DNA from: Pyxidicoccus trucidator | Lineage (GTDB): Bacteria; Myxococcota; Myxococcia; Myxococcales; Myxococcaceae | DNA length: 64,000 nt | NCBI RefSeq assembly: GCF_010894435.1 | Contig: NZ_JAAIXZ010000023.1 | Coordinates: 62,001-126,000, forward strand | Direction: 5' to 3' | Shown: piece by piece, positions 19,491 to 58,334 of the stretch | How positions within the stretch are numbered: position 1 is the first letter of the stretch | Layout: every line of letters starts with the position of its first letter | The notes under the pieces: model-generated | Told to the model about the DNA's origin: nothing | The model's database searches: none | The model's input: only the letters and a program-made list of their open reading frames with translations | Program-made: the position numbers and the translations under genes

Positions 19491-20393
19491 CTACCGGGCC
19501 TCGCCCTCGCTGCCACCGAGCCCCGCCCGCTCCTTCCGGCACAGCTCCGCCAGCCAGTCGTAGGCGGCTCGCACGCGCGGGCTTCGCTGCAGGTCCTTGT
19601 GGACGACGAGCCACAGGGGCCGCTTCGCCAGGACGCCCGCGCCCACGCGCGTCAGCCGAGAGTCCCGCTCACCGCTGAGGCACGGCAGCAGCGCGACGCC
19701 GAGCCCGGCGGCGGCCGCCTCGCGCAGCACGGTGGAACTGTTGCTCTGGAGGAGCCGGCGCGCGCCCGCCGTCAGTCGCTTCAGCTCGTCCGACTCGGCG
19801 CCGGAGGTCAGGGCCGCGCGGTAGAGGAGGACACAGTGCCCGCGGAAGTCCCCGGGCCTGGGCGCACCGTGGCGGCGCAGGTAGCCGCGCGCCGCGTACA
19901 TGGCGAAGGCCACGTCCGCCACCTTCCGCACCACCAGCGCGTCTCCCCGAGGCGGCGCGAGCCGGAGCGCGAGGTCCGCGTCGCCTCGCTGGAGGTCCAC
20001 CAACTCGCTGCCCGCCACCAGCTCCAGGTCCAGGCCGGGATGGCGCGTGTGCAACTCGCCCAGTCGCGGAGCAATCAAGGCGTGGGCGAGGTACTCGGTG
20101 GCGGTGAGTCGCACGGTGCCCACGGCGCGGGCCTCGGTCGCCACGGCGCTGTGCAGCGAGCGCAGGGAGTCCTCCATCTCCCGCGCCCGGGCCACCACCG
20201 CCTCCGCGGCCTCCGTGAGGGCGAGCGTCCGTGCGCCGCGCAGCACCAGCCGCGTGCCGAGCGACTTCTCCAGCGCGTCCAGCCTGCGTCCCACCGTGGT
20301 GGCATCCACGCGCAGCTCGCGCGCCGCGCCCGCGAGCGAGCCCTGGCGCGCCACCGCCAGCAGGTACCGCAGGTCGTCCCATCGCATGTCCAT
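19491..20393 (-). CDS. LysR-family transcriptional regulator
   Basis: A 300-residue protein with an N-terminal winged helix (DDLRYLLAVARQGSLAGAAR, then VDATTVGRRLDALEKSLGTRL) and a C-terminal ligand-binding domain. The recognition helix T-T-V-G-R-R-L places it with the one-gene-regulating LysR subgroup. It is divergent from an alpha/beta hydrolase 101 bp away, the classical LysR arrangement, so that hydrolase is the likely target. Start at MDMRWDD; the eight-codon longer form is less likely. Confidence 0.88.
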   Translation of the reverse strand: MDMRWDDLRYLLAVARQGSLAGAARELRVDATTVGRRLDALEKSLGTRLVLRGARTLALTEAAEAVVARAREMEDSLRSLHSAVATEARAVGTVRLTATEYLAHALIAPRLGELHTRHPGLDLELVAGSELVDLQRGDADLALRLAPPRGDALVVRKVADVAFAMYAARGYLRRHGAPRPGDFRGHCVLLYRAALTSGAESDELKRLTAGARRLLQSNSSTVLREAAAAGLGVALLPCLSGERDSRLTRVGAGVLAKRPLWLVVHKDLQRSPRVRAAYDWLAELCRKERAGLGGSEGEAR

Positions 20394-20494
20394 GCCTGCA
20401 ATGGTGCAGCAAAGCACTGCATCCGTGCAGCCCTCCCGGCGCTATCTCGCGACAATGGGGCGCGCACGGCGGTCCCCATGACGGGAGGACGGAC

Positions 20495-21457
20495 ATGGCT
20501 CACGCGGCGATGCTGGAGCGGGAAGTGGGACCGGCGGTGCCGGAGACGACGTCGGACGCGACGGGCCTCAGCCTGGACACCGGCCCGGGAGTCCCGTTTC
20601 CCATCCGGGCCCGGGACGGCTACGCGCTCTCCGGGACGCTCTACCCCCACACGGGCGCGGAGCTGGGAGGCGTGGTGCTCATCAGCTCCGCCACGGGGGC
20701 GCGCCAGCGGTACTACGCGCGCTTCGCCGCGTACCTCGCCGGGCGGGGCCTGCCCACCGTCACCTATGACTACCGGGGCATTGGCGGTTCGCGCCCCGCG
20801 TCGCTCGTGGGCTTCGGGGCCCGGATGGAGGACTGGGGAGCGAAGGACCTCGCGGGCGCCATCGACACGGTGCGCGAGCGCTTCCCGGGCCGCCGGGTGC
20901 TGCTGGTGGGGCATAGCGCGGGCGGACAGCTGCTCGGGCTCGCGGACAATGCGCGCGCGGTGACGGCGCTGCTCACGGTGGCGTCGGGTTCGGGTTACTA
21001 CCGGCTCTTTCCCCAGCGGCTGCGCATGGCGCTCAACTGGCGCGTGCTGGCGCCCCTGCTGGTGAAGGCGTACGGGAAGCTGCCGGGCTGGGCCGGCACG
21101 GCGGAGGACCTGCCCGCGGGCGTGGCCGAGCAGTGGGCGCGCTGGTGCCTGGCGCCGAGCTACCTGCTGAGCGAGGGCGGTGAGGCACGCCGCGAGGCCT
21201 ATGCCTCGCTGTACCTGCCGCTACGGGCCTACAGCTTCACGGACGACCCCATCGCCTCGCCGGCCTCGGTGCGCGCGCTGCTGTCCGTCTACGCGGATGC
21301 CGTCGTGGACCACCGGCTGCTCTCTCCGAAGCAGCTGGGACAGGCCATCGGCCACTTCGGCTTCTTCCGCGCGCCCTTCCGCGACTCGCTGTGGGCGGAC
21401 GCGGCGGACTGGCTCGCGGACAAGGCACTGTCTCCCCGGTACGCGAAGCGCGCCTGA
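20495..21457 (+). CDS. Alpha/beta hydrolase
   Basis: A 320-residue cytoplasmic alpha/beta hydrolase: YDYRGIGGSR strand-loop, nucleophile elbow G-H-S-A-G-G and a C-terminal IGHFGFFR with the likely catalytic His. ATG at 20495 is preceded by GGGAGGA. It is divergent from the LysR gene and probably controlled by it. The substrate is unknown; no thioesterase or lipase signature allows a finer call. Confidence 0.8.
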   Translation: MAHAAMLEREVGPAVPETTSDATGLSLDTGPGVPFPIRARDGYALSGTLYPHTGAELGGVVLISSATGARQRYYARFAAYLAGRGLPTVTYDYRGIGGSRPASLVGFGARMEDWGAKDLAGAIDTVRERFPGRRVLLVGHSAGGQLLGLADNARAVTALLTVASGSGYYRLFPQRLRMALNWRVLAPLLVKAYGKLPGWAGTAEDLPAGVAEQWARWCLAPSYLLSEGGEARREAYASLYLPLRAYSFTDDPIASPASVRALLSVYADAVVDHRLLSPKQLGQAIGHFGFFRAPFRDSLWADAADWLADKALSPRYAKRA

Positions 21458-21742
21458 CACGCCGACGACGCGTGGAGCGCCACGGGCTCAGCGGCTGGCG
21501 CGCTGACCCGGCGCCGGCATGCGCTCCTCCGTCCACCAGGCGCCCAGGGCCGTGAAGGAAATTTCCGCTCCGAGCCGCCCCGGGTAGTGCTCAAGGCGGC
21601 GAAGGCCGCTGAGCGCCTCACCGCATCCGGCCGCGCCACGCAGGCCGAGACGATGCGCGCGTGGATGGACTCCCTGCCAGAGGACGAGAAGCCGAAGCCC
21701 TCCCCTGAGAAGAAGCGGCGCCGGCAGGACGGCAGGACGTGA
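21458..21742 (+). pseudogene. Start-less coding remnant
   Basis: The frame that begins right after the hydrolase stop stays open to a TGA at 21740 and reads as a plausible protein tail (AAERLTASGRATQAETMRAW, then an acidic and a Lys/Arg-rich end). There is no usable start codon before 21587 and no RBS, so this looks like the C-terminal scrap of a lost gene. I do not recognise the family. It lies directly upstream of the CBASS-protease locus. Coding nature is uncertain. Confidence 0.3.
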
Positions 21743-21787
21743 GGAGACCTTGGCACCCAGTCGGTCAGGTCACCCCTTCGAAATTCC

Positions 21788-21813
21788 GAGGTAATAATCC
21801 AGCGATTCCCGTC
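21788..21813 (+). promoter_or_regulatory. Promoter-like motif GGTAAT-N14-CGTC before the sigma-factor gene
   Basis: GAGGTAATAA (21788-21797) and CGTC (21810) resemble ECF-type -35/-10 elements. The same ten bases and the same 14-base GTAAT-to-CGTC spacing occur before the CHAT-SAVED gene, and a near copy before the two-repeat gene. CGTC ends 20 bases before the ATG. This is pattern evidence only. Confidence 0.4.
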
Positions 21814-21833
21814 CGGGTGGGCACGAGATCCTC

Positions 21834-22529
21834 ATGGCCCCACCCAACGCCCTGGTGTCCCATACAACCCCACTGGCAGAGAAACTGCCTGCGGAGGCCT
21901 CCTCCGCTGCAGTGATGGAGGCTCGCGCGCCGCAAAGGCCCTTGCATATCGTAGAGCAGAATGCGGCGATCCATGGAGGGGCCTCACCTTTGATGGGAAT
22001 GGGAGACCGCAGCCACGCGGCGGGGGCGATTGCGCTGCAACTCCGCGACTGGCTCCTGGCCCAGGCAAAGGTCATCTGCCGCAATGCACCGGATGCAGAG
22101 GATCTCGTCCAGGAGACTCTGACCCGGTTCATGGCCACCTTTGGCAGCGCAAGCCCACTGCCGAACGAGCGCACCGCCGCGAAGTGGCTGGTGACCACTC
22201 TCACCCACATCTTCTATGACCAGTGCCGGAAACAGCGTGTACAGGCGCGGAGGGTGAGCGACCTGAGCCTGGCTGCCGAATCCAGGAACGAGCAACCTGT
22301 GCCTCCGCCAGCATACGAGTCCCTCTCGGAAGAGCAGATAGAAGAGGCGATCAGCCTGCTGGGCTCGGTGGGCCGTACCACCTTCGAACTCCATGTCGCC
22401 GGAAAGAAGAACCCCGACATTGCTCGCGAGCTTGGCATTCGAGCTGGAACAGTGGCCAAGCGGCTGCACGATGCACGCGTCAAGCTGCGCACCATTCTCC
22501 GGAAGTATCTCCAATCGGGGGTGAACTGA
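21834..22529 (+). CDS. ECF-type RNA polymerase sigma factor of the CBASS-protease locus
   Basis: The 231-residue protein has a sigma-2 region (DAEDLVQETLTRFMATF, then WLVTTLTHIFYDQCRKQR, about residues 83-135) and a sigma-4 helix-turn-helix (NPDIARELGIRAGTVAKRL, about 195-215). A 60-residue N-terminal extension of unknown role precedes sigma-2. Its stop overlaps the anti-sigma start by one base (TGATG), so the two are translationally coupled, as expected for a sigma/anti-sigma pair. It is the first gene of an eight-gene same-strand cluster; I infer it is the transcriptional output of the cascade. Confidence 0.85.
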   Translation: MAPPNALVSHTTPLAEKLPAEASSAAVMEARAPQRPLHIVEQNAAIHGGASPLMGMGDRSHAAGAIALQLRDWLLAQAKVICRNAPDAEDLVQETLTRFMATFGSASPLPNERTAAKWLVTTLTHIFYDQCRKQRVQARRVSDLSLAAESRNEQPVPPPAYESLSEEQIEEAISLLGSVGRTTFELHVAGKKNPDIARELGIRAGTVAKRLHDARVKLRTILRKYLQSGVN

Positions 22530-25465
22530 TGGCTGGCGCCTGTGACAAGCTCGAGCCCTTCATCGACGGTGATTTGCCGCCGGATGCGGCACAGACCTTC
22601 CGGGACCATCTTCCGGAGTGTGCTCGCTGTCAGCGAGAGCTCACGGAGCTGCTCCATCTCAAGCTCATCGGCAAGCGCCATTTCGAGCGAGTCGGGCCCC
22701 GGCCCCAGTCGTTTTCGCCGGCGCCCGGGCCCTTGCCTCTATGGAGACGTACCGCCTTATTGGCTGCGGCCTCCATGTCCGTGCTCCTGCTGCTGGTAAT
22801 GGGCGTTTGGCCGCGTTCAACCCCCAGCCCGGGACAGGGAGCCGTCTGGCTGGCAGACCGTCCCCAGCGCCTGCTGGACGGGCGTCTCTCCTATCGAGAT
22901 GCTGACCGCTATCGTCCTCCTGCATCGAAAACGATGGGAAGTGACAGAGGAGCGGAGCGGCTGCCGCTTGAGGAGTTGGCTCGCCTGGAGAAGGCGGACC
23001 CTCAGGGCGCTGCGGCCGTCTACCTTGTACGCAATGACAAGGACTTCACGAAGCAGGCCATTCAGCATCTCAAGGAACTGCCGCCTTCTGCGGACCGGGA
23101 CAATGACAGCGCCGTGGCCAAGCTGGTCTCGGGCGAGTTCTTGGAAGCCCTCCGCCATACCGATGCAGCCCTCGCGAAGCAGTCCAGGCACCCTCAGGCA
23201 ATGTGGAACCAAGGGCTGGCGCTTGAGGAACTGAAGCTCCCGCTCACAGCGGCCCGGGCATTCAGGCAGATGGCAGCCCTGGCGGAGGAAGGCTGGGCCC
23301 AGGAAGCCACCCAGCGCGCCGAGAGTCTGCAAGGGGATGCCACCCAGCGACATGCGCGCTGGGACGAGGCTGTCGCGGCGGGCAAGGCTCTGCTCGACCC
23401 GGCTCCGGTTTCGCCGCCCGAGGGCTTCAGCCAGTTCTACATCGCCAGGCTCCTTTTCTATGACGCCGTCCGGGCTGCACCCGACCGGGAGCGGGCCCTC
23501 GCGCTGGTGCCCTTGGCCCAGGAACTGGATGCCCGGTCCGAGGCAGGCGTACTCGAGGCCTATGTGCGCCGGGTCGCCGATGCCGACTTCTCGCGCCGCG
23601 CGCCACTGGCTCAGGACTATGCGGCGCTCGTCCGGAAACAGCTCCCGGCAGAGCGACGGCAGCCCTTCCTCACGGAGTTGCTGGCGTCGGACGAGGAGGA
23701 CATCCTCCTGGGGGCGCTCGTCCTCATGGACGCCGTTGGGCCTCATCTTGCCCGCTTCGAAGCCATGGCCAGCGCCACGGGCGACCGCTGGTTCCAGCTG
23801 CTTGTGGCGCAGGTGCGTGCGACGGTGGAGGAGCGCGCGGGACGCAAGGAGCAGGCCGTCCAGTTGCTCGTCCAGGCCAGACAGCTCTGCCCCGCGCCCG
23901 GGCTGGAGTACCGCTGCATCTTCCTGCGGCGCGAGCTGTCGGGTCTCTACATCCAGCTGTACCAGTTCGACGCCGCACGAGATCAAGCAACGGAGGGATG
24001 GCAGGAGGCCCGTGCCGGCAACGAGTGGGCCCTGGAGCGGGACTTCCTCTGGGACCTCGCCCAGGTCGCGCGCTTCGTGAATGATGCCTCGCTCGCCCGT
24101 GCCTACTTCACGGAGTTCCTCGCGGGTGCTCCGGACGACCTGGAGACGGTCCGCCGCGTCCGCCAGCATCTGGCGGACATCGCCCTGCACCAGCTGCGGG
24201 TGGAAGAAGCGCGCGCCGAGATTGATGCGGCGCTGGCCACCGGGCTGCCGCTGTCTTTCAGTGGAGCGCTGACCCTGGCCGACATCTCGCGGATGCGGCC
24301 TGCGCCGGACGATGAGGCCGCCCTGCGACGTGCGCTGAACGAAGCCATGCACGGCCTGGGCCCCGGAGAGAAGGCCATTGCCACCCATGTGCTCGGGCGT
24401 TTCTTCATCGAACGGGATGCTGGCCAGGGCCGAAGCCTGCTCTGGAAGGCCATCGAAGAAGCAGAGCCCCACGGCCCAGAAGAGGACCTGGCAGCACGAA
24501 GGGCCCGCGCATATAGCTTCACCTCGCTCATCCTGGAAGCGGGCCGCCGCGGCGCCTTCGATGAAGCACTGGAGCTGGTAGCACGCGAGCGCGGGCAGGT
24601 GCTCCCTCCGCAGTGCTTGCTGGTAGCCGCCGTGGATTCGGAGCGGACACTGCTCGTGGTGCGAGGGGCCGCGGGGGACCAGCTCGGCCACTACGATGCG
24701 CTACGGCGCGAGCCCCTGGGGCCACAGCTCGACGGGCTCGTGCCGGAAGTGCTCCTTGCACCTCTCCGGGCATGCACGCGGGTGCAGGTCATCGCCCGTC
24801 CGCCCCTGCATGGCCGGCCCGGCCTGCTGCCCCCGGACATGGCCTGGAGCTACCTGACGCGTCTGTCGGAGCGCTCTCCGACCACGACACTCCGTCCGGT
24901 CCGCCTGGTGGTCACCAACGTCGAGCTGCCCTCTGGCACGCCTCTCAGGCGCCTCAACACCTGGACTCCAGCCCGTGTCCTTGGTGAGCAGCGGGACACC
25001 CTCGCGGGGGCGGAAGCGACGCCCACCCGGGTGCTTGCGGCGATGAAGAACGCCACGGAGATCGACTTCTTCACGCACGGCGTCCTCAATAGATACTCCG
25101 ACGCTTCCTACTTGCTGCTGGCCTCGGAGCAGGGGAGGAGCGAGCTGCGCGCACCCAGGGTCAGGGCTGCTCGGCTATCAGGCGCGCCTTTCGTCGTCCT
25201 GGCCGCCTGTCACGCTGCGCACACCGCGTACGCACTCCACGAGCCACTCAGCCTTCCTGCCGCCTTCATCGAGGCAGGGGCGCGCGGCGTGCTCGCCGCG
25301 ACGGTGGAGATTCTCGACCTGGAGGCAGGCACATTCTTCGACGCGGTCCGTGAGCGCATGCGCTCGGGCGTGGACCCGGCCATCGCGCTCCGCGACGAGC
25401 GCATGCGCTGGCTGGCTGAAGGCAGGGGTGGTTCATGGATTCACAGCGTCCTGCTCTTCGACTGA
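22529..25465 (+). CDS. Anti-sigma factor fused to TPR region and CHAT protease
   Basis: The 978-residue protein starts with a zinc-binding anti-sigma domain (H27-x3-C31-x2-C34 in DHLPECARC), then one hydrophobic segment (about 75-94), a long helical region with TPR-like repeats (about 140-700), and a C-terminal CHAT caspase-like domain with the catalytic His in FFTHGV (about 850) and Cys in VLAACHA (about 894). It should sequester the preceding sigma factor until signalled. If the hydrophobic segment really spans the membrane, the protease would face the periplasm, which conflicts with a purely cytoplasmic cascade; topology is therefore an important open point. Start ATG at 22529 overlaps the sigma stop; the longer frame is a shadow of the sigma gene. 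Confidence 0.82.
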   Translation: MAGACDKLEPFIDGDLPPDAAQTFRDHLPECARCQRELTELLHLKLIGKRHFERVGPRPQSFSPAPGPLPLWRRTALLAAASMSVLLLLVMGVWPRSTPSPGQGAVWLADRPQRLLDGRLSYRDADRYRPPASKTMGSDRGAERLPLEELARLEKADPQGAAAVYLVRNDKDFTKQAIQHLKELPPSADRDNDSAVAKLVSGEFLEALRHTDAALAKQSRHPQAMWNQGLALEELKLPLTAARAFRQMAALAEEGWAQEATQRAESLQGDATQRHARWDEAVAAGKALLDPAPVSPPEGFSQFYIARLLFYDAVRAAPDRERALALVPLAQELDARSEAGVLEAYVRRVADADFSRRAPLAQDYAALVRKQLPAERRQPFLTELLASDEEDILLGALVLMDAVGPHLARFEAMASATGDRWFQLLVAQVRATVEERAGRKEQAVQLLVQARQLCPAPGLEYRCIFLRRELSGLYIQLYQFDAARDQATEGWQEARAGNEWALERDFLWDLAQVARFVNDASLARAYFTEFLAGAPDDLETVRRVRQHLADIALHQLRVEEARAEIDAALATGLPLSFSGALTLADISRMRPAPDDEAALRRALNEAMHGLGPGEKAIATHVLGRFFIERDAGQGRSLLWKAIEEAEPHGPEEDLAARRARAYSFTSLILEAGRRGAFDEALELVARERGQVLPPQCLLVAAVDSERTLLVVRGAAGDQLGHYDALRREPLGPQLDGLVPEVLLAPLRACTRVQVIARPPLHGRPGLLPPDMAWSYLTRLSERSPTTTLRPVRLVVTNVELPSGTPLRRLNTWTPARVLGEQRDTLAGAEATPTRVLAAMKNATEIDFFTHGVLNRYSDASYLLLASEQGRSELRAPRVRAARLSGAPFVVLAACHAAHTAYALHEPLSLPAAFIEAGARGVLAATVEILDLEAGTFFDAVRERMRSGVDPAIALRDERMRWLAEGRGGSWIHSVLLFD

Positions 25466-25486
25466 GGCGTTTCTTCTCCGTCGGCA

Positions 25487-25511
25487 GGTAACGACCGAGG
25501 CAGGTCACGTC
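25487..25511 (+). promoter_or_regulatory. Promoter-like motif GGTAAC-N15-CGTC before the two-repeat gene
   Basis: GCAGGTAACGA followed, 15 bases after GTAAC, by CGTC (25508). It resembles the motif before the sigma and CHAT-SAVED genes, with one base more spacing. Transcription from it would begin near 25518, just before the GTG at 25523, which favours the TTG start at 25562. Confidence 0.3.
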
Positions 25512-25561
25512 CTATTCAGCGGGTGGTTTCAGGGACTCCACCCATTGGACAGGAGCCCTCC

Positions 25562-26200
25562 TTGAGCAAGCCAAGCCTGCCGTACCATGACCTTGAGTTC
25601 TCCAGCGACGCCCCCTTCTGGAGCGGAGAGGAAGCCTCCGAGCGGCGCATCTTCCTCATGCCCGCCTCACCGCCCTCCAAGTTCGTCGGCTTCGGTGTAG
25701 CCCGAGCTTCGAAGGAGGTGTGCTTCGTGGCCCGGGGCGTGGTGGCCGACCACCTCGGGCACTTCATCTCCCGGAACGTCCGAGAGGGAGCCAGGGTGGA
25801 ACTCTATGCGAAGCCCCCGCTGCCCCACTGGCTGCTGGAGCGCTACGTCTGCGATCCCCCCTGGGAGGGACACGAGTATGAGAAGCCCCCCAACCCTCCC
25901 GTTGGCGGGCTGGTCGCCACCGGAGTGGAGCGGTACGCGCCGTCCCCGACAGGCGCCCTGTGGTCGGGAGGGGACGGCTCCAACCGGGTGACCTTCATCA
26001 TCCCGGTGCATGACCCGGCCGAGTTCCTCGCGCTCGGAATGCTCGGCTCGCAGGCAGAGGAGCACTTCATGCGCGTGGGCCGGGTGGAGGATCAGCTCGG
26101 GGACTTCATCGAGCAGATGAAGCGAGAAGGAGCCCGGGTGGAGCTGCGGGCCCTGCCACCGCTCCCGGAGCCGCGCCTTCGCAGGTACTTCACCCGATGA
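25562..26200 (+). CDS. Two-repeat protein of unknown function in the CBASS-protease locus
   Basis: The 212-residue protein is an internal duplication. Repeat 1 (about 12-96) and repeat 2 (about 124-210) share FW/LWSG, an F-h-x-P strand, a GxxVADHLGHFI / GRVEDQLGDFI helix, and the ending REGARVEL-x-A-x-PPLP followed by RY. I do not recognise the family; no catalytic motif is visible. TTG at 25562 is chosen because AGGAG lies six bases upstream; a GTG at 25523 is the alternative. It overlaps the caspase-like gene by four bases, so it is a good candidate for that protease's inhibitor, substrate or chaperone. Confidence 0.75.
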   Translation: MSKPSLPYHDLEFSSDAPFWSGEEASERRIFLMPASPPSKFVGFGVARASKEVCFVARGVVADHLGHFISRNVREGARVELYAKPPLPHWLLERYVCDPPWEGHEYEKPPNPPVGGLVATGVERYAPSPTGALWSGGDGSNRVTFIIPVHDPAEFLALGMLGSQAEEHFMRVGRVEDQLGDFIEQMKREGARVELRALPPLPEPRLRRYFTR

Positions 26201-27630
26201 AGGACTCCACCATGGCTCTTGAACTGCTCCTGGCCCATGCCGATGACGGCCAGCCCGTGATTCCAGAGGGGCTTCCCATGGAAGCCCTTCACTTTCCCTC
26301 GAAGCCCGAGCCGCTCGACCTTCCCGAGCGGCTGTGGGACACCAGTGGTGACCATGACCGGCTCTCCCGGCAACGGTGGGGCCTCGTGGTGCCACAGGGG
26401 CCGCGGGGCCAGCAGCTGCTCGCGCGGGTCTGCCGGCTGCGGGAGCACCGCGAGGCGCAGCAGGGAGGAAGGCCTGCTCAGATCTACTGTGTGCCGCCCG
26501 GCATGGATGGCGTGAGCGCCGCCAACTGGAAGCGGACGGTCTTCCGGGACGAAGCCGTGTCTGAGGCGGAGCGCCCGCGATACCTGCTGCTGCTGGGGGA
26601 CCTAGACGAGGTCTCGCTGGAGCTGCAGCAGGAACTGGGCACGGATGCCTTCGTGGGCCGCCTGACGTTCCCGACGGACGAGGGCTACGACGCCTACGTC
26701 GATAAGGTGCTGCGCTGGGAGGCCACGGAGGCCCGCGCACACCGGCCGCGCGTGATCTTCTACACCGCTCTGGACGGCTCGGACGCGACCCGGTGGGGGC
26801 GGGAAATGCTCATCGAGCCGGGCGTCTCGGACTGTCGCAGCCGGACGACGGACGAGGGTCGGCCGCTGGTCGAGGTCCACGACATCATTGGCAAGGCGGG
26901 TGACCCCTCGGGGGAACTGCTGGCACGTGCGGCGGAGCCCGGGCCGTCCGTACTGTTCTCGCTGAGTCACGGAGCGGGGACCCCTCGTAAGGGATGGCCT
27001 TCCCTTGCCCAGCAACGTGAGCGACAGGGGGCACTCGTTCTTCCGGGCGGACAGCTCCTCACAGCTGCAGACCTGGCTTCGAGGCCCTTTCTTCCTGGAG
27101 GGGTGTGGTTCTGTCTTGCCTGCTTCAGCGCGGGGACCCCGGCGCCGAGTTCCTACACGCCATGGCTGCGCGACCTCGCCAGCACGGACCCCGAGGCGGC
27201 CCGTGTCCTGGCAGGTGCCCTGCCCAAGCAAGGGGACCGGCCCTTCATCGCCGCGCTCCCTCAAACCGTGCTGGCCAACCCGGAGGGACCGCTGGCCGTC
27301 ATGGGACATGTGGACCTCGCCTGGACTTCTGGCTTCGATGACCATGGCCGAGGAATGCCCTCCCGCTTCCTGGGCGTGGTCCAGGCGCTCCTCGATAGCC
27401 GCCGCGTCGGCGCCGCCATCCACACCCTGTTGCGCTTCTTCGGAGAGGCGAACAGCACGCTGGCGGTGCTCTACCTGCGGGAGGCGCTGGAGCGCGAGGC
27501 CGGGAAGCCGTGCTCCGTGGCTCCACAGGACAAGGCGGAGCTCTGGCTGCGGCGGCAGGACCTCGCCGGCTACGTGCTGCTCGGAGACCCCGCGGCGCGG
27601 CTGGCGCTACGCACTGAAGAGGCGAGGTAA
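26197..27630 (+). CDS. Caspase-like (clan CD) cysteine protease
   Basis: In this 477-residue protein, VLFSLSHGAGTP supplies a caspase-type catalytic His (H258) and GGVWFCLACFSAGTP the Cys (C309 most likely; C306 also present). The order and spacing match clan CD enzymes such as CHAT and metacaspase-like proteases, but the N-terminal 180 residues match nothing I know. The ATG at 26197 overlaps the previous stop; an ATG at 26212 has a better RBS (GAAGGA, seven bases away) and may be the true start. Neighbouring SAVED-CHAT suggests it is activated by cleavage. Confidence 0.7.
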   Translation: MKDSTMALELLLAHADDGQPVIPEGLPMEALHFPSKPEPLDLPERLWDTSGDHDRLSRQRWGLVVPQGPRGQQLLARVCRLREHREAQQGGRPAQIYCVPPGMDGVSAANWKRTVFRDEAVSEAERPRYLLLLGDLDEVSLELQQELGTDAFVGRLTFPTDEGYDAYVDKVLRWEATEARAHRPRVIFYTALDGSDATRWGREMLIEPGVSDCRSRTTDEGRPLVEVHDIIGKAGDPSGELLARAAEPGPSVLFSLSHGAGTPRKGWPSLAQQRERQGALVLPGGQLLTAADLASRPFLPGGVWFCLACFSAGTPAPSSYTPWLRDLASTDPEAARVLAGALPKQGDRPFIAALPQTVLANPEGPLAVMGHVDLAWTSGFDDHGRGMPSRFLGVVQALLDSRRVGAAIHTLLRFFGEANSTLAVLYLREALEREAGKPCSVAPQDKAELWLRRQDLAGYVLLGDPAARLALRTEEAR

Positions 27631-27649
27631 TAACCGCACGCTTGGCGTC
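27624..27649 (+). promoter_or_regulatory. Promoter-like motif GGTAAT-N14-CGTC before the CHAT-SAVED gene
   Basis: GAGGTAATAA (27624-27633, overlapping the caspase gene's stop) and CGTC (27646) repeat the motif before the sigma gene with identical 14-base spacing. CGTC ends 41 bases before the ATG at 27691. Confidence 0.4.
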
Positions 27650-27690
27650 TGTATTTGCGGTGCCTCACCTCATCATTGGAAGACACGCCC

Positions 27691-29634
27691 ATGTCTGGAA
27701 ATTCCAGCCCGCGAAAGGTCTCACTCAGCTTCTCGCTGCTGACCCGCATTCAGGACCCGCATGAGGTTCCAACCGGGCCCCGGGAGTACCGCATCGAGCA
27801 CACGGACCGGGATGAAAGCAGGGCCACCTTCCCCTGGGGTGAGCCCGAGTTCGTGCAGGCGATGGCCGACCTGGAGAAGCCCATCCCGGACTCCAACGTC
27901 TTCGCGAGGCTGGGGAAGTACCTCCAGGACTTCCTACACGGGACGCCGTGGGCGAAGGATGAGGACCGCATCAACCAGGCGTGCAAGGCCGGGCGTCCCA
28001 TCCACGTCACCATCCGCTCGAATGCGCCCGAGCTGTACTACCTGCCCTGGGAGCTGCTGAAGCTCAAACCCGGTGGCGGTCCTCTCGTCGAGCTGCCGGA
28101 CTGCTGCATCCGCTACGAGTGGCCGCAGCGTCCGCCCGAGGACGAGCTGCCTCGCCCTGTGGGGCGCATCCTGGTGGCAGTCCCAGCGACTGACGGTGCG
28201 CTGCCCATTGCCGGTCACCTCAAAGCCATTGCTGAGGCCTGCCGCAAGGAGCGCTTCGAGTTCGACCTGGACCGCGACGTGCTCTCTCCGGTGACGCGGA
28301 CGTCCCTAGCGAATGCACTGAGCGACACCGCCAGACCCGTCACCGCGCTCCACCTGCTTTGCCATGGCGGAGTGAAGCCCAACGGAGCCTATGGGCTGCG
28401 CCTGGACTCCTTGAAGAAGGGACACCCTCCTGAGCACCTCGACTCGGAGGAACTGCGACCACTCTTCAGGGATGCCCGCTCGCTCCGGCTTGTCACCCTG
28501 TGCGCCTGTCAGAGCGGCGATGCTGGTCGGCCGGGCCCCCTGGTGGGGAGCGTTGCCCAGATGCTGAATCGGCAGGGGGTCCCCGCGGTGATTGCCTCCA
28601 GGATGCCCCTGTCCACCGAGGGATCCAACCTGCTGACCGAGACGCTCTATGCCGAGCTGCTCGGTAGCAGCAAGGACCTGTGCAAGGCCTTCTCCATCGC
28701 CCGGCGGCGCCTACACATTGAGCAACGGCACAAGGACTGGGCCTCGCTCCAGCTCTACGCACGCGAGGATGACGCAGCCGCGCTCCGGCCCTTCGTTGCT
28801 CCTCCTGCGCCCCCTCCTCCAGGGACGCGCGGCGACCTCGTGCTCATCCGCCACGAGGCCTATGCCAAGGCTGATACGGCGCCTGACGCGCCCGATGCTC
28901 CGGAGCTTTTCCTGAACCGGACCGTTCGCGAAGTGCCCATCGACCACACGCGTGCGCTGGAGGGCCGCGACTGGAGCAGGGAGAAGCTCGAGGCAGAGGT
29001 CCGGCAGCTCGTCTCTTCTCGCGGAAGGTTCCGGCGGGCCCTCTCGGAGCGCGGCAGCGAGCTCGTCTACTTCGGCTTTCCCTTCGTCCCCCTGGCTGTC
29101 CTCGCGGGCTACCTGGCGAAGACGCGCCCGGTGCATGTCTTCGAGTACGACCGGGACAAGAAGCGCTTCACCTGGGAGGCGGAGTCCAGTGCGCCCTTCC
29201 CGCCGCTCATCATTGAGGACCAGCGCCACGAGTCAGGGACTGCCGCCAGGCTCCGGCTCTCCATCTCCGCTACCGTCCGGCTCGAAGACTGTCGCGAGGT
29301 GCTGAAGGACGAGGAAGTGAGGCTCGACCTCCACGGCCGGCTTGAGTCGTTCGGACGAGGCGTCATCCGGCGCAAGTCCCAGGCACAAGCCTACGCGCAG
29401 CAGCTCCGGCAGATGCTGGACGTTCAGCTCACGAGCAACCCCGACGTCCGGAGCGTCCACATCTTCGCGGCAGTCCCGGTCAGCATCGCCTTCCATCTGG
29501 GCCAGGAGCTGAATACGACCTGGATGCGGCCCTGCTACGTCTACAACTTCGAGCAGGAGAAAACGCCTCGTTACAAATGGCGCTTGTGTCTCCGTGCGGC
29601 GGCCGACGGCCAGCCCTCGGTCGACGTCTTCTAG
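27691..29634 (+). CDS. CHAT-SAVED cyclic-nucleotide-activated protease (CBASS effector)
   Basis: The 647-residue protein joins a CHAT protease (about 100-360; LYYLPWELL, H225 in HLLCHGG, C273 in TLCACQSG) to a C-terminal SAVED domain (about 430-647; LVYFGFPFVPLAVLAGYL, VHVFEYDR, and HIFAAVPVSIAFHLGQ), linked by a proline stretch. SAVED domains bind cyclic oligonucleotides made by CD-NTases or type III CRISPR and oligomerise to switch on the fused effector. It precedes the CD-NTase gene, so the second messenger made next door should activate this protease. Start: ATG at 27691 with TGGAAGA nine bases upstream; the TTG at 27655 is less likely. Confidence 0.85.
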   Translation: MSGNSSPRKVSLSFSLLTRIQDPHEVPTGPREYRIEHTDRDESRATFPWGEPEFVQAMADLEKPIPDSNVFARLGKYLQDFLHGTPWAKDEDRINQACKAGRPIHVTIRSNAPELYYLPWELLKLKPGGGPLVELPDCCIRYEWPQRPPEDELPRPVGRILVAVPATDGALPIAGHLKAIAEACRKERFEFDLDRDVLSPVTRTSLANALSDTARPVTALHLLCHGGVKPNGAYGLRLDSLKKGHPPEHLDSEELRPLFRDARSLRLVTLCACQSGDAGRPGPLVGSVAQMLNRQGVPAVIASRMPLSTEGSNLLTETLYAELLGSSKDLCKAFSIARRRLHIEQRHKDWASLQLYAREDDAAALRPFVAPPAPPPPGTRGDLVLIRHEAYAKADTAPDAPDAPELFLNRTVREVPIDHTRALEGRDWSREKLEAEVRQLVSSRGRFRRALSERGSELVYFGFPFVPLAVLAGYLAKTRPVHVFEYDRDKKRFTWEAESSAPFPPLIIEDQRHESGTAARLRLSISATVRLEDCREVLKDEEVRLDLHGRLESFGRGVIRRKSQAQAYAQQLRQMLDVQLTSNPDVRSVHIFAAVPVSIAFHLGQELNTTWMRPCYVYNFEQEKTPRYKWRLCLRAAADGQPSVDVF

Positions 29635-29711
29635 AGCCTCATCTGCCCTTAACGCTTTGCACGCCACCCACCGTGGTGCGTGGAACCCTTTTCCCTAAAG
29701 AGGTACTTCCC

Positions 29712-30740
29712 ATGGTCAAGCTGAGCACGAGGAGCCAGCTCCACAGCCGTATGTCCTCATTCGTCGATTGGATTCGCGCGGGAGACAAGGACGACATCAT
29801 CATCAAGCAGTCGCAGGAGATCCGCGACCGTATCCGCAGCCAGGCGGAGGCGGACGGGCTGACGGTGCGCTCCACCCCGAACTCCGGGTCCTTCGCCAAG
29901 AAGACGGGCCTGAGGAGGCACCTGCAAGGCCACTCCTACGTCGAGGGCCAGGACGTGGACCTCCCCTTCGTCGTCTCGCCGCGTGACGAGGACGGCGCGC
30001 GCATCGATGAGTTGCTCCGGCGCTTTGCCCGCTACGCGCAGACCTCATATCCGGAGACCAGCCGCACCCCGACGCGAAGTTCCATCCAGCTCGACTTCGT
30101 CGGCACCAAGCTCCGCTACGATCTGGTGCCCATGCTCGCCGTCCCCGGGGACGACTTTGCCCAGGTGCTGCTGCGCTCCAACGGAGAAAGGCGCCACACC
30201 TCCGTCCAGAAGCACATCGAGTTCGTCACAGCCCGCAGCGGGAAGAGCAACTTGCTGGCGGGGCGGGTCCGCTTCAACGACTGCGTCCGGCTCCTCAAGT
30301 GGTGGCGGGAGTTCCGGGTGGATGGGGCGCGCGTCCTCAAGGACGTGCCGTCCATGCTCCTCGACCTGCTCTGCGCGCACGCCTACGACCGCCTCGAGGT
30401 CGAGGAGACCTACGCCGGCACGCTATCGCGGTGGTTCAGCCTCCTGGCCGGCACGGTGCGCAAGCGGGAGCGGGTCGCCTTCTCCGACTTCGCCCGCATC
30501 CCGGCCGCCTCGGGCAACGCCGTGTGGACGGTCCTCGACCCGGTCAATCCCGAGAACAACGTCGTGTCGCAGTGGGACAAGTTCCAGGTCGAAGAGCTGG
30601 CGGAATGGCTGGAAGAGGGCTGCGACAGCATCAACCGGGCGCTTGCCGCAGACCTCCGCGGAGATGATGTCGCGAGCCTGGAGTCCCTGGTGGAGCTGTT
30701 CGGCAATCCGTTCAGGAACCACTGCGAGGTGGACGGATGA
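29712..30740 (+). CDS. CD-NTase (cGAS/DncV-like nucleotidyltransferase) of CBASS
   Basis: Makes a cyclic oligonucleotide alarm signal on phage infection. The 342-residue protein has the nucleotidyltransferase core: G59-S60 in NSGSFAKKT, D81-x-D83 in QDVDLPFVV, and the third acid D137 in LRYDLVPM. The order CD-NTase, HORMA, TRIP13 defines a type III CBASS; the HORMA partner suggests a clade C-like enzyme, but the clade is not proven. Start: ATG at 29712 with AAAGAGG nine bases upstream. Its stop overlaps the HORMA start (ATGA). Confidence 0.9.
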   Translation: MVKLSTRSQLHSRMSSFVDWIRAGDKDDIIIKQSQEIRDRIRSQAEADGLTVRSTPNSGSFAKKTGLRRHLQGHSYVEGQDVDLPFVVSPRDEDGARIDELLRRFARYAQTSYPETSRTPTRSSIQLDFVGTKLRYDLVPMLAVPGDDFAQVLLRSNGERRHTSVQKHIEFVTARSGKSNLLAGRVRFNDCVRLLKWWREFRVDGARVLKDVPSMLLDLLCAHAYDRLEVEETYAGTLSRWFSLLAGTVRKRERVAFSDFARIPAASGNAVWTVLDPVNPENNVVSQWDKFQVEELAEWLEEGCDSINRALAADLRGDDVASLESLVELFGNPFRNHCEVDG

Positions 30741-31219
30741 CCTTCTCTCACACCAGGACCTCCACCTTCACCGAGGCCCGGGTCCGGGAGGTCATGAAGT
30801 CGGTGTTCGACGAGCTCGTGGGCGCCGCCAGGCGGGGGTTCATCTCGCTGGAGAATGCCCAGAAGTGGAATGACGACTTGACGTACATGCTGTTCCGCCA
30901 AGTCGTTGCGTACTTCGAGCTGCAGTTCAGGACGCCCGAGGGGCAGCGGGTCGGGTTCCGGTACGACGTCAGCGATGACGGCTCGCTGCTCGAGGGCTCC
31001 CGCTCCGGCGGGCAGCGGCTCTACATGCTGCCGGATGGCACCCGGGGCTCCATCTTCGTCTCCTTCCGGGAGGGGCAGCTGGACTCGGAGACGGACACCG
31101 AGCTGACGAGGCGTGACTGGGTCTCCGGTGGGTCATCGCTCCAGGGAGAGGGAACACGGGACAGGGCGTACTCGGACCAGGGCTATGGGCTGATTCGAAA
31201 GCGAATGGGGGACTGGTAA
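30737..31219 (+). CDS. cap7: Bacterial HORMA-domain protein of CBASS (Cap7-like)
   Basis: The 160-residue protein matches the small bacterial HORMA family: TFTEARVREVMKSVFDEL, then LENAQKWNDDLTYMLFRQ, YFELQF, and RYDVSDDGSLLEGSRSGG followed by LPDGT. In type III CBASS, HORMA closes around a peptide from a phage protein and then binds and activates the CD-NTase. It overlaps the CD-NTase by four bases and the TRIP13-like gene by one (TAATG), so all three are translationally coupled. Confidence 0.88.
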   Translation: MTFSHTRTSTFTEARVREVMKSVFDELVGAARRGFISLENAQKWNDDLTYMLFRQVVAYFELQFRTPEGQRVGFRYDVSDDGSLLEGSRSGGQRLYMLPDGTRGSIFVSFREGQLDSETDTELTRRDWVSGGSSLQGEGTRDRAYSDQGYGLIRKRMGDW

Positions 31220-32094
31220 TGGCTGGGATGCAACTCGTGGAGACGACTCACCCGTCGGATCAGGCGCAGGAAGGCTTCGACGCGCTTATCGGCCTGGAGA
31301 ACCAGAAGCAGCTGCTGCTCGAGGAATTGCTCCTCCTGCTGGCTCCGGATCGCCTTTCCAAATGGCTCAAGCGCCACCACTCCGAGGGGCTTCCCCTCGC
31401 GGCGACCGCTCAGCGAACGACCCCCCTGGTGTTGCTGAGCGGTGAGGTCGGCTGTGGGAAGACCGCGCTGGCGACCTCCGTGGGTACCCCCCTCGCTCGT
31501 GAGCTCGGGGAGAAGGTGCGGGTCCTGGAGACTCCCTCCGATATCCGCGGCACCGGGCTCGTGGGAGAACTCTCTACGAGGGTGACCGAGGCGTTCGCCC
31601 AGGCCAAGTCCAAGGTGGGGAAGGGATATGGCCTGCTCATCATTGATGAGGCGGACGACATCGGCATGAGCCGCTCCGAGCAGCAGGCCCACCACGAGGA
31701 CCGTGCGGGGCTCAACGTGCTCATCAAGCAACTGGACACCCTGCCACGGGAGAAGGTGCGCATGGCGGTGCTGATGATCACCAACCGGGTGAACGCGCTT
31801 GACCCCGCCATCCGGCGTCGGGCCGCCTTGACGCTTGAGTTCACCCGGCCCGGGCAGCTTGAGCGCCAGCGCCTGTTCGAGCACCTGCTCCGAGGGAGCG
31901 ACCATACCCCCACCGAGGTGGAGACCCTGGTCCGGCAGAGCAATCGCGAGGTTCCCTACTCCTACTCGGACCTCATGCACCGGGTTGCCCGCGCCGCCCT
32001 GCTGGAGTGCCTGCGCCGCAATGAGCCCTTCGGGCCCGCGGGGCTGATGGCCGCGCTGACACGGGTAGAGCCCTCGCCCATGATGGCTCCCTGA
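31219..32094 (+). CDS. cap6: TRIP13/Pch2-like AAA+ ATPase of CBASS (Cap6-like)
   Basis: The 291-residue AAA+ protein has Walker A GEVGCGKT (75-82), Walker B LLIIDEADD (D143, E144), a sensor region MITNRVNALD and RRR after it. TRIP13-like ATPases pull HORMA open and so switch CBASS signalling off and keep it from false alarms. Size and position directly after HORMA fit. It is the last gene of the locus; a hairpin follows 12 bases later. Confidence 0.88.
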   Translation: MAGMQLVETTHPSDQAQEGFDALIGLENQKQLLLEELLLLLAPDRLSKWLKRHHSEGLPLAATAQRTTPLVLLSGEVGCGKTALATSVGTPLARELGEKVRVLETPSDIRGTGLVGELSTRVTEAFAQAKSKVGKGYGLLIIDEADDIGMSRSEQQAHHEDRAGLNVLIKQLDTLPREKVRMAVLMITNRVNALDPAIRRRAALTLEFTRPGQLERQRLFEHLLRGSDHTPTEVETLVRQSNREVPYSYSDLMHRVARAALLECLRRNEPFGPAGLMAALTRVEPSPMMAP

Positions 32095-32105
32095 GCCGAG
32101 CAGGA

Positions 32106-32136
32106 GGGTCAGGGAGGAACAGTCCTCTCCTGGCCC
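32106..32136 (+). terminator. Imperfect hairpin after the CBASS locus
   Basis: GGGTCAGGGAGGA pairs with TCCTCTCCTGGCCC with one bulge and one G-U pair around an ACAG loop. There is no T-run, so this is a candidate only. Confidence 0.35.
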
Positions 32137-32146
32137 GAGCCGCTGG

Positions 32147-32242
32147 CTACTCCGCCGTGAAGTACAGGTTGTCCAGCAGCAGCTTGTCCGCCGCCCCGCC
32201 CTGGCCGGCGATGAGCACGAACGGCGCCGTCACGGCATCAAA
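32147..32242 (-). pseudogene. C-terminal remnant of a lost gene
   Basis: On the minus strand 31 codons read FDAVTAPFVLIAGQGG, then LLLDNLYFTAE and a stop; an in-frame stop cuts the frame just upstream. This is typical of the end of a secreted carbohydrate-binding protein and not of random DNA. Downstream to 32520 I see no intact gene. Together with the scrap at 21458-21742 it brackets the CBASS locus with debris. Confidence 0.4.
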
Positions 32243-32520
32243 GCTTCAATCCCACTGCGGTGAAGGCCGCCGGCCGGATAGCCAGCAATGCGCCACCGAC
32301 TACGAACGTCCAGGCGAGGTCTGGATGGCCTGCGAGTTCACGTGCGGCAGGGACCGCTCCCTGCCCGGACGGGCTCATCTGCGACCGAGCTTCGTACCAG
32401 GCCCCCGCGACCCCAACGACCCCGACATCTGTGCAGTGGACCACCACTGCACCCGGAGGACGAAGCGCAGCCCTTTGTGTGCCAACCCGCCTACCGGCCG
32501 AAGCGATAGAACCCACTCCC
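32243..32520. other. Gap with no recognised gene before the SDR
   Basis: No frame in this stretch reads as a known protein. A minus-strand frame ending at 32238 has a hydrophobic tail (TFVVGGALLAIRPAAF) that could be a decayed membrane protein, but it has no start of its own. It should contain the SDR promoter. Confidence 0.4.
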
Positions 32521-33291
32521 ATGGACCTGGAGCTCAAAGGAAAGTCGGCCCTCGTCACCGGCAGCAGCCGGGGCATCGGCCGGGCCATCGCCACGGTGCT
32601 GGCCCGCGAGGGCGCACGGGTGTGCCTCACCGCGCGCGGAGCCGAGGCACTGGAGGCCACCGCGGCGGAGCTGCGCGCCTCCGGCGCGGACGTCACCACC
32701 GTGGTGACGGACGTGGCCACCCAACCCGGCGCGGTGGCGGCGGTGGACGCGGCCGTCCATGCCTTCGGCACGCTGGACATCCTCGTCAACAACGTGGGCG
32801 GCAGCGGCGGCGCGGGCGCCTTCGACGCGGCCACCGTGGCGCAGTGGGCCTCCATCATGGACCGCAACCTCATGTCCGCCGTGTGGTGCAGCCAGCGCGC
32901 CGTAGAGGTCATGCGCGCCAAGGGCGGCGGCTGCATCATCCACATCAACTCCATCTACGGCCGCGAGTACGCCACCAGCGCGCCCTACACCACCGCCAAG
33001 GCCGGCCTCACCGCGCTCACCAAGGAGATGGCCGTGGACCTCGCCCGCCACCGCATCCGCGTCAACGGCGTGGCGCCGGGCTCCATCCTCTTCCCCGGTG
33101 GGAGCTGGGACAAGCGCCGGCAGGCGGACCCGGAGAAGGTGGAGAAGCTCGTCCGCGAGGAGCTGCCCTGGGGCCGCTTCGGCGCCCCCGAGGAGGTGGC
33201 CGACGTGGTGGCCTTCCTCTGCTCGGAGCGCGCGCGCTGGGTGACGGGCGCCACCCTACCGGTCGATGGAGGACAGGGCCGTGCCTTCTGA
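32521..33291 (+). CDS. SDR-family NAD(P)-dependent oxidoreductase
   Basis: The 256-residue classical short-chain dehydrogenase has the cofactor loop TGSSRGIGRAI (about 12-22), NNVGG after strand 4 (N-N-A-G variant), catalytic Ser in IINSIYG region, Y-x-x-x-K in PYTTAKAG, and a late N-G-V-A-P-G. The substrate is unknown; members near FabG reduce 3-oxoacyl groups or similar ketones. The start at MDLELKGKSAL is chosen because the family starts there; upstream codons are debris. Confidence 0.9.
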   Translation: MDLELKGKSALVTGSSRGIGRAIATVLAREGARVCLTARGAEALEATAAELRASGADVTTVVTDVATQPGAVAAVDAAVHAFGTLDILVNNVGGSGGAGAFDAATVAQWASIMDRNLMSAVWCSQRAVEVMRAKGGGCIIHINSIYGREYATSAPYTTAKAGLTALTKEMAVDLARHRIRVNGVAPGSILFPGGSWDKRRQADPEKVEKLVREELPWGRFGAPEEVADVVAFLCSERARWVTGATLPVDGGQGRAF

Positions 33292-33348
33292 CGGGAAGCC
33301 CCGGCGCGCCCCATGCTATGCAGGGCCCCTCCGCATGAGACCGCACGC

Positions 33349-57951: not shown

Positions 57952-57962
57952 GGACGTCCCCC

Positions 57963-58334
57963 TCACTCCAGGTCCTTCAACTCAGTCTCGGCCCACTCGC
58001 GGTAACGGGGAATAGGCTCGTTCGCGATGTACTCCTCCAGCACCTTCCGCGCGCCTTCAGGGTCTTCCGCCTCCTGGAGGTCACGCACGTCGCCGAGCGT
58101 GCTGGAGTAGCGCTTCCCGCCATCGATGACCCGGCGGCGGACCTCCCGCACCAGCGCCGCCGTCCCCTCGGCCGTGAGCAACAACGTGTAGACCTCTGCC
58201 TCGGCAATCGTCATCTGCAGCGCGACGGACTGCACCTGTGCGCGGTCCTCACCAGGAAGCTCCAACCTTCCCTCCGGAGAGATCCACTTCTCCATCGCAA
58301 TGACCTGGTCCCATGCAGGTACTCGCGGTCTCAC
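57963..58334 (-). CDS. DUSAM-domain protein
   Basis: The 123-residue protein matches the DUSAM domain, a family of unknown function found mainly in Myxococcus and Stigmatella: WDQVIAMEKWISPEGRLEL at the start, VREVRRRVIDGGKRY in the middle, and GARKVLEEYIANEPIPRYRE near the end. It overlaps the NACHT gene's possible GTG start, so the two are probably coupled. Its role may be to regulate or sense for the NACHT protein. Confidence 0.75.
   Translation of the reverse strand: MRPRVPAWDQVIAMEKWISPEGRLELPGEDRAQVQSVALQMTIAEAEVYTLLLTAEGTAALVREVRRRVIDGGKRYSSTLGDVRDLQEAEDPEGARKVLEEYIANEPIPRYREWAETELKDLE

Follow-up and report, generated by a model that had tools for sequence, protein, structure and literature searches.

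A DdvA-type anti-sigma factor with a CHAT domain beside type III CBASS genes in Pyxidicoccus trucidator

The gene considered here lies at 22529-25465 (+) in a stretch of 64,000 nucleotides from Pyxidicoccus trucidator (contig NZ_JAAIXZ010000023.1, positions 62,001 to 126,000), referred to below as the window, whose numbering is used throughout. It encodes a protein of 978 amino acids (aa), and its start codon (ATG at 22529) overlaps the stop codon (TGA, 22527-22529) of the extracytoplasmic function (ECF) sigma factor gene at 21834-22529. Judged by its sequence and predicted structure, the protein belongs to the DdvA family of transmembrane anti-sigma factors, known from Myxococcus xanthus, and the idea of an anti-sigma factor with a CHAT domain is not itself new. 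Less expected than this kinship, the same switch cassette stands beside three different types of infection sensor.

The anti-sigma gene and its relative DdvA

The sigma and anti-sigma genes and the parts of the anti-sigma chain are as follows.

21834-22529, + strand: ECF sigma factor gene, 231 aa, DdvS-like (Pfam Sigma70_r2 and r4_2; TIGR02937; 37% identity across 160 residues with the sigma gene preceding DdvA)
22529-25465, + strand: DdvA-type anti-sigma factor with transmembrane, TPR-like and CHAT parts, 978 aa (Pfam, alignment, AlphaFold2 model, fold match)
22541-22630, + strand: CHCC zinc motif of the anti-sigma domain, C5, H27, C31 and C34 (Pfam, homologue alignment)
22751-22810, + strand: single predicted transmembrane segment, residues 75-94 (hydropathy)
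22967-24592, + strand: helical TPR-like region, residues ~147-688 (predicted structure; weak Pfam TPR_16 match)
24989-25414, + strand: CHAT domain, residues 821-962 (Pfam PF12770, E 2e-15), with H850 at 25076-25078 and C894 at 25208-25210

An earlier note on this DNA had recorded H27, C31 and C34, the hydrophobic segment at 75-94, H850 and C894 of the CHAT domain and the sigma gene directly upstream, all of which are present in the frame and at the coordinates that it gave. C5 is likely the fourth zinc ligand; the Pfam zf-HC2 match at residues 6-35 scores 21.2 bits, slightly below the cut-off of 22.2. In an alignment of 40 distinct homologues, six have no letters in the zinc columns, H27, C31 and C34 are invariant in the other 34, and C5 is cysteine in 33 and histidine in one. 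The earlier note had also asked whether the catalytic residues are kept in orthologues, and H850 (within FFTHG) and C894 (within AACHA) occur in 40 of 40, which leaves its proposal standing on this point. The AlphaFold2 model (mean predicted local distance difference test, pLDDT, 85.4) comprises a three-helix N-terminal domain, a low-confidence linker and transmembrane stretch (51-106), helical repeats and an alpha/beta C-terminal domain. The TPR-like repeats proposed earlier correspond to the helical region of this model, with a TPR_16 match that falls below its Pfam cut-off.

The known relative was reached by a sequence search of the solved structures in PDB. The 979-aa query is matched from residue 3 to 979 (E 2.3e-169) by entries 8rot and 8rw5, both titled 'Cryo-EM structure of the transmembrane anti-sigma factor DdvA', and over the zinc domain (query residues 3-59) by 8rlz, titled 'Antisigma factor DdvA'. 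A Foldseek search with the model returned DdvA first (8rw5, E 1.7e-53; 8rot, 2.2e-53), with template modelling (TM) scores of 0.76-0.77 by query length, followed by Csx29 (4e-9) and separase (7e-9). The earlier proposal of an anti-sigma factor joined to a CHAT domain in one chain is thus borne out, with DdvA as the best fold match.

The protein is predicted to cross the membrane once with its N terminus inside, consistent with DdvA being called transmembrane, and the TPR-CHAT part would therefore lie in the periplasm. The top hydropathy window begins at residue 75 with a score of 2.30, the runner-up scoring 1.49. In 54 of 57 homologues more than 800 aa separate the strongest hydrophobic segment from the C terminus, the other three being N-terminally cut, and the net charge before the segment exceeds that after it in 50 of the 54. 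Prediction thus agrees with the earlier note, which had regarded a periplasmic CHAT domain as a puzzle, and this puzzle is largely answered because DdvA is a homologue. Binding of the sigma factor and the transmembrane state of the window protein are carried over from DdvA by analogy. The abstract of the DdvA paper (Bernal-Bernal et al. 2024, Sci Adv) is said to describe arrow-shaped DdvA-DdvS transmembrane dimers with a periplasmic TPR-CHAT domain of the separase/craspase type whose His-Cys site is incomplete, and reportedly proposes autoproteolysis of DdvA in trans followed by the action of RseP. If this is so, both the self-cleavage idea and the answer to the topology question have already been published for DdvA. 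The earlier interpretation accordingly stands as regards the fusion and, by prediction, the single pass; it missed that proteins of this kind were already known and overlooked the operon next door.

The CBASS operon and the recurrent cassette

The genes directly downstream of the anti-sigma gene, on the same strand, constitute by sequence a type III cyclic oligonucleotide-based antiphage signalling system (CBASS), with CD-NTase, HORMA, TRIP13 and effector in one operon.

25523-26200, + strand: p225, two tandem beta-beta-beta-alpha repeats (model pLDDT 80; conserved in cassettes)
26197-27630, + strand: caspase-like protease of Peptidase_C25 type, dyad H258/C309 (Pfam PF01364, E 8e-7)
27655-29634, + strand: SAVED-CHAT CBASS effector, open reading frame, likely ATG at 27691 (Pfam SAVED, E 2e-32, and CHAT, E 2e-19; PADLOC SAVED_CHAT, E 2e-116)
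29577-30740, + strand: CBASS CD-NTase (SMODS), which probably starts downstream of 29577 (Pfam SMODS; PADLOC Cyclase, E 6.5e-151)
30737-31219, + strand: bacterial HORMA protein of type III CBASS (Pfam bacHORMA_1, E 6e-30; PADLOC HORMA)
31219-32094, + strand: TRIP13-like AAA ATPase of type III CBASS (Pfam AAA; PADLOC TRIP13, E 4e-94)

At E <= 0.001 PADLOC returned nothing for the anti-sigma factor, p225 or the caspase, and the caspase has no sequence match among solved structures. Its H258 and C309 are present in 20 of 20 rows and are invariant also in A1. For p225, no match was found in Pfam, PADLOC, NCBIfam or the PDB sequences at the thresholds used; Foldseek gave nothing at E <= 0.001 and otherwise superposed it poorly on reverse transcriptases (TM score ~0.2), and the best Z in VIA-align (5.9) is under the level that its own note calls common. 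Kept together with the caspase, p225 is a candidate caspase inhibitor or substrate. Such a caspase inhibitor goes by the name PCi, and neither a sequence match nor a convincing fold links p225 to a known inhibitor.

The DdvA locus was located in genome G076, which bears the DdvA stretch at 100% identity over 203 residues. Pairwise identities between the window and this locus are 37% for the sigma factor, 39% for the anti-sigma factor (almost full length), 44% for the caspase and 27% for SAVED-CHAT. DdvA shares with the window protein the CHCC zinc N-terminal domain, the one transmembrane segment, the TPR-like region and a CHAT domain in which His and Cys agree. Its gene likewise follows an ECF sigma gene, within a CBASS island that also encodes SAVED-CHAT and a C25 caspase. 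The order there is SMODS CD-NTase, SAVED-CHAT, sigma, DdvA, small protein and C25 caspase; a second CD-NTase, E1-E2 and JAB come next, and beyond them lie Cmr3 and RAMP genes. The window differs in that its CBASS is of type III (HORMA/TRIP13), in that no Cmr gene is present among the ten genes scanned with Pfam at 20231-33338, and in having the two-repeat p225 where the DdvA locus has a small protein of 110 aa. DdvS is described, in passages of PMC12288465, as controlling a CBASS/CRISPR island (CRISPR, clustered regularly interspaced short palindromic repeats).

The cassette was surveyed in stretches of up to 20 kb together with 76 caspase-profile loci, using tblastn and our own hidden Markov models. 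When 96 genomes of the family were searched for SAVED-CHAT, each of the 12 best matches, two of which contain a single internal stop, had an anti-sigma-CHAT homologue no more than 10 kb away. Among six weaker full-length matches (26-31% identity), four are in the cassette (L122, L227, L233, L234) and two have none in the 19.9 kb read (L231, L232). The series of sigma, anti-sigma-CHAT, p225 and caspase genes occurs beside type III CBASS in the window and at L105, L110, L111 and L112; beside type II CBASS (DncV-like CD-NTase, E1-E2, JAB) at L106, L107, L108, L109, L113 and L114, where the p225 match is weak in L107 (35 bits) and L109 (25 bits); and beside CHAT-nSTAND1 proteins at L115-L121 and L038. 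Pfam confirmation covers one type II set (L113), the JAB of L106 and three nSTAND1 proteins, of which that of L116 carries WD40 repeats, that of L117 TPR and that of L118 neither. L038 (C1:655001-675000) is a second cassette in the P. trucidator genome itself, with sigma, anti-sigma-CHAT, p225 and caspase genes, a divergent CHAT-nSTAND1 gene and its own copy of the promoter motif described below. Anti-sigma homologues occupy ten places in this genome, the window included. A TPR-CHAT match at E <= 1e-20 was found in 66 of a sample of 193 genomes of the phylum (at most five candidates per genome scored), 65 of them in the window's family and one in another family of the order.

Two further observations concern genes that adjoin these cassettes. 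Thrombospondin type 3 repeat genes with exported-looking N termini follow the caspase in CHAT-nSTAND1 cassettes (L120:1691-4915, examined with Pfam in this locus only, and similarly in L038, L118 and L119). Two type III CBASS operons have a second effector after TRIP13, an HNH-SAVED protein by Pfam at L111:14987-16180 and a member of the same cluster at L112:14932-16125.

A tree of 57 anti-sigma-CHAT proteins separates a housekeeping clade of 23 rows (support 100), none of whose loci has a caspase or SAVED-CHAT in the stretch covered. Outside it, 29 of 34 have a caspase at a centre-to-centre distance of up to 11 kb (17 with SAVED-CHAT, one of which, L172, was recognised by the CHAT part alone; eight with CHAT-nSTAND1, a label given only above 200 bits; and four with no sensor seen). 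The caspase label (29 versus 28 rows) changes three times on the tree compared with 19.5 times in shuffles. Sampling of the 57 rows was not random, many loci having been fetched for a nearby caspase or SAVED-CHAT, and some stretches are short; the 12 of 12 SAVED-CHAT linkage is less biased. L227 shows the caspase of the DdvA locus, of which L221 is a short copy. Exceptions in the housekeeping clade are L217, with an nSTAND1 match of 134 bits ~4 kb away, and L218, with a weak p225-like match (28 bits) adjoining. Four rows of this clade without a zinc-domain match (L042, L044, L045, L218) retain the N-terminal hydrophobic segment.

The caspase itself occurs in Myxococcota mostly without a DdvA-type anti-sigma factor (57 of 68 loci, L125-L192), and 19 of these 57 loci lie near genes of one large STAND-like cluster; on these grounds the C25-type caspase may be a hub with several outputs.

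Elsewhere in the window, a gene at 55027-57966 (-) encodes a 979-aa NACHT protein with C-terminal pentapeptide repeats and is possibly another defence gene, its third-position GC of 0.74 being below that of most neighbours. A DUF2379 gene at 57963-58334 (-) lies directly upstream of it.

A shared promoter-like motif

Three predicted sigma-dependent promoters lie in the window.

21790-21813, + strand: predicted promoter GGTAATAA-N12-CGTC before the sigma gene (motif; one of only 4 matches in the genome)
25487-25511, + strand: predicted promoter before p225 (motif matches)
27626-27649, + strand: predicted promoter before SAVED-CHAT (motif matches)

When spaced 4-mers were counted de novo in 32 regions upstream of sigma genes, GGTA-N17-CGTC and overlapping words were present in 15, compared with at most 8 in ten shuffles. 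GGTAAYRA-N12-14-CGT occurs three times in the window, before the sigma, p225 and SAVED-CHAT genes, against 0.02 expected. The longer form GGTAAYRA-N12-14-CGTC has four matches in the 12.67-Mb genome, all in the two cassettes (three in the window and one before the sigma gene of the second cassette); the reversed pattern has eight in the same genome. In 33 loci there are 43 matches, 34 of which lie close to the start of a sigma, p225 or sensor gene, in windows that make up 4.3% of the sequence; in these windows 39 letter-shuffled patterns gave at most one match each and the reversed pattern none. The p225 upstream regions took no part in the motif discovery. From these sequence patterns we infer that the window sigma factor reads GGTAAYRA-N12-14-CGTC sites. 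As a means of finding the regulon in other genomes the pattern was rejected, since in many of the 96 its matches are about as numerous as those of the reversed control.

Proposed release of the sigma factor

We propose that the DdvA-type anti-sigma factor holds the sigma factor at the membrane and that infection-triggered cutting frees it to amplify the CBASS operon, a reading to which we assign a probability of roughly 0.72. The cytoplasmic CHCC zinc domain would tether the adjacent ECF sigma factor at the membrane, and the TPR-CHAT part would be periplasmic. Infection would lead to cleavage of the anti-sigma factor, most likely starting in the periplasm, where the CHAT site of the other subunit of the dimer would act, and continuing within the membrane; alternatively, the cut may come from inside, by the operon caspase activated by SAVED-CHAT. 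The freed sigma factor would then read the promoters before its own gene, p225-caspase and SAVED-CHAT, and the CBASS operon would thereby amplify itself in a positive feedback. Observed here, as the basis for this proposal, are the architecture, the conservation of the zinc ligands and of His and Cys, the homology to DdvA, the operon context, the recurrent linkage and a promoter-like motif confined in this genome to two cassettes.

Several points weigh against this proposal. Any cleavage, the side on which it falls, its trigger and the feedback are steps that we infer. The Pfam CHAT match covers only profile positions 121-267 of 289, and the DdvA paper is said to call the corresponding His-Cys site incomplete. 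Both residues are found in the housekeeping paralogues as well, so that their conservation says nothing specific about infection. The promoter motif is found before under half of the genes examined (sigma 15 of 31, p225 9 of 26, sensor 9 of 26), was drawn partly from the loci in which it was counted, several of them near copies, and is unspecific across the family, matches to the reversed control being just as numerous in many genomes. The DdvA locus (19.9 kb) has one match, to a looser form of the motif, before the second CD-NTase and not before ddvS.

As a candidate for the sigma-releasing protease the operon caspase is as good as the CHAT domain. It is possible, at appreciably less than even odds, that a SAVED-CHAT activated by second messenger activates the C25-type caspase, that this cuts the cytoplasmic linker of the anti-sigma factor (residues 45-74), and that the periplasmic CHAT is a structural or dimerisation part. 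The caspase and SAVED-CHAT are co-encoded, most anti-sigma factors outside the housekeeping clade (the 29 of 34 above) have a caspase nearby, and none of the window's sigma, p225, caspase, SAVED-CHAT and CD-NTase proteins has a signal-like hydrophobic start. Precedents are described in passages on CalpL/CalpT/CalpS (PMC11417357), on Csx29/Csx30/CASP-sigma (PMC10028731) and on the SAVED-CHAT cascade (PMC11229360). However, the linker is modelled at low confidence and is rich in K and R before the membrane in housekeeping paralogues too, so that no specific cut site is seen. Moreover, no caspase is seen in the stretch covered for five of the 34, nor for any of the 23 housekeeping rows, and these caspase-free anti-sigma factors must be released in another way.

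In the version of the earlier note, envelope damage or the entry of phage would be detected by the periplasmic TPR-CHAT part, which would then cleave the chain to which it belongs. On this view CBASS is only a downstream target. The predicted topology and the invariant His and Cys fit this, as does a lipobox gene directly 3' of six of 22 housekeeping rows (L041, L042, L043, L209, L214, L219) compared with one of 22 on the opposite strand, which suits a periplasmic partner there. Among defence-type rows, however, such a gene follows only one of 33, the same as in the opposite-strand control (1/33), and an envelope lipoprotein partner for the window anti-sigma factor was accordingly discarded. 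The signal for DdvA was called 'unknown' in 2015 in passages of PMC4374960. The linkage to cytosolic sensors suggests a cytosolic trigger, and we regard envelope sensing as rather unlikely.

Release of sigma factors by site-1 and site-2 proteases is standard for ECF systems, and the CHAT domain, to which the Pfam match is partial, might be a non-catalytic receptor or dimerisation fold, with release by general regulated intramembrane proteolysis. Invariance of His and Cys in all 40 homologues, across both branches of the tree, would be surprising in a dead enzyme and makes this reading distinctly improbable. A housekeeping envelope-stress pair that stands beside CBASS by chance is disfavoured and very hard to credit, for although the genome has ten places with homologues and the family also exists without CBASS, the 12 of 12 SAVED-CHAT linkage, the grouping of caspase-labelled rows in the tree (3 versus 19.5 changes) and the shared promoter motif speak against it.

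The proposal of a membrane-held sigma factor freed by cutting can be extended, tentatively and at a little under even odds, to the cassette as a whole. One output cassette (ECF sigma, DdvA-type anti-sigma-CHAT, p225, caspase) would be common to sensors of three classes, all of which bear a homologous CHAT domain: the SAVED-CHAT of type II CBASS, the SAVED-CHAT of type III CBASS, and NLR-like CHAT-nSTAND1 proteins, some with WD40 or TPR repeats. The CHAT sensor would start a protease relay that frees the sigma factor, which would feed forward on the sensor, on p225-caspase and on itself, and the membrane anti-sigma factor could merge cytosolic and periplasmic signals.

Reportedly, Steens et al. 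(2024, Science) found in Haliangium ochraceum that the substrate of SAVED-CHAT is a second caspase (PCaspase), in an operon said also to have sigma, anti-sigma-like and inhibitor genes and to be linked to type III-B CRISPR. By this description the likeness lies in SAVED-CHAT and a second caspase in one operon, and in the window, too, a C25-type caspase with a His/Cys dyad adjoins SAVED-CHAT; Haliangium is not among the 76 caspase-profile loci. Other known systems are compared here on the basis of passages of the papers cited. CalpL cuts CalpT and so frees CalpS (PMC11417357), a type III CRISPR pathway that runs, as may the present one, from second messenger through a SAVED-protease and anti-sigma cleavage to release of an ECF sigma factor; it differs in having a Lon protease and a separate anti-sigma factor, and a TPR-CHAT fusion is absent from those passages. 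In the craspase of type III-E CRISPR, Csx29 cuts Csx30 and relieves its inhibition of CASP-sigma, bringing a TPR-CHAT protease, a sigma and an anti-sigma factor into one pathway (PMC10028731), and Csx29 is a Foldseek match of the window protein; there, however, protease and anti-sigma factor are separate proteins and Csx29 partners the RNA-guided Cas7-11. SAVED-CHAT is reported to act via a proteolytic cascade (PMC11229360). For ECF54 sigma factors, which have CHAT proteins in their gene context, control by proteolysis has been proposed (PMC8999054); this ECF sigma-CHAT link, set beside the window by description only, differs in that the proteolysis proposed there involves no anti-sigma factor.

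Literature searches that paired the CHAT domain with anti-sigma/myxobacteria or with sigma factor/zinc finger found nothing. Among the matches listed, no title or abstract start describes a sigma/anti-sigma-CHAT/p225/caspase cassette with nSTAND1 sensors, in a comparison that lay outside the Sci Adv 2024 and Science 2024 papers. The words CHAT, nSTAND1 and sigma factor are absent from the eLife paper PMC7159879.

The window gene thus extends the DdvA family, and the recurrent cassette with its three sensor types, together with the promoter motif confined in this genome to that cassette, are the parts worth following. For experiment the sequence offers three promoter candidates, two catalytic dyads and one small protein, p225. 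Cassette and motif make it testable what inactivates DdvA-type anti-sigma factors, and whether cyclic-nucleotide and NLR-like phage sensors share one proteolytic route to transcription with positive feedback.

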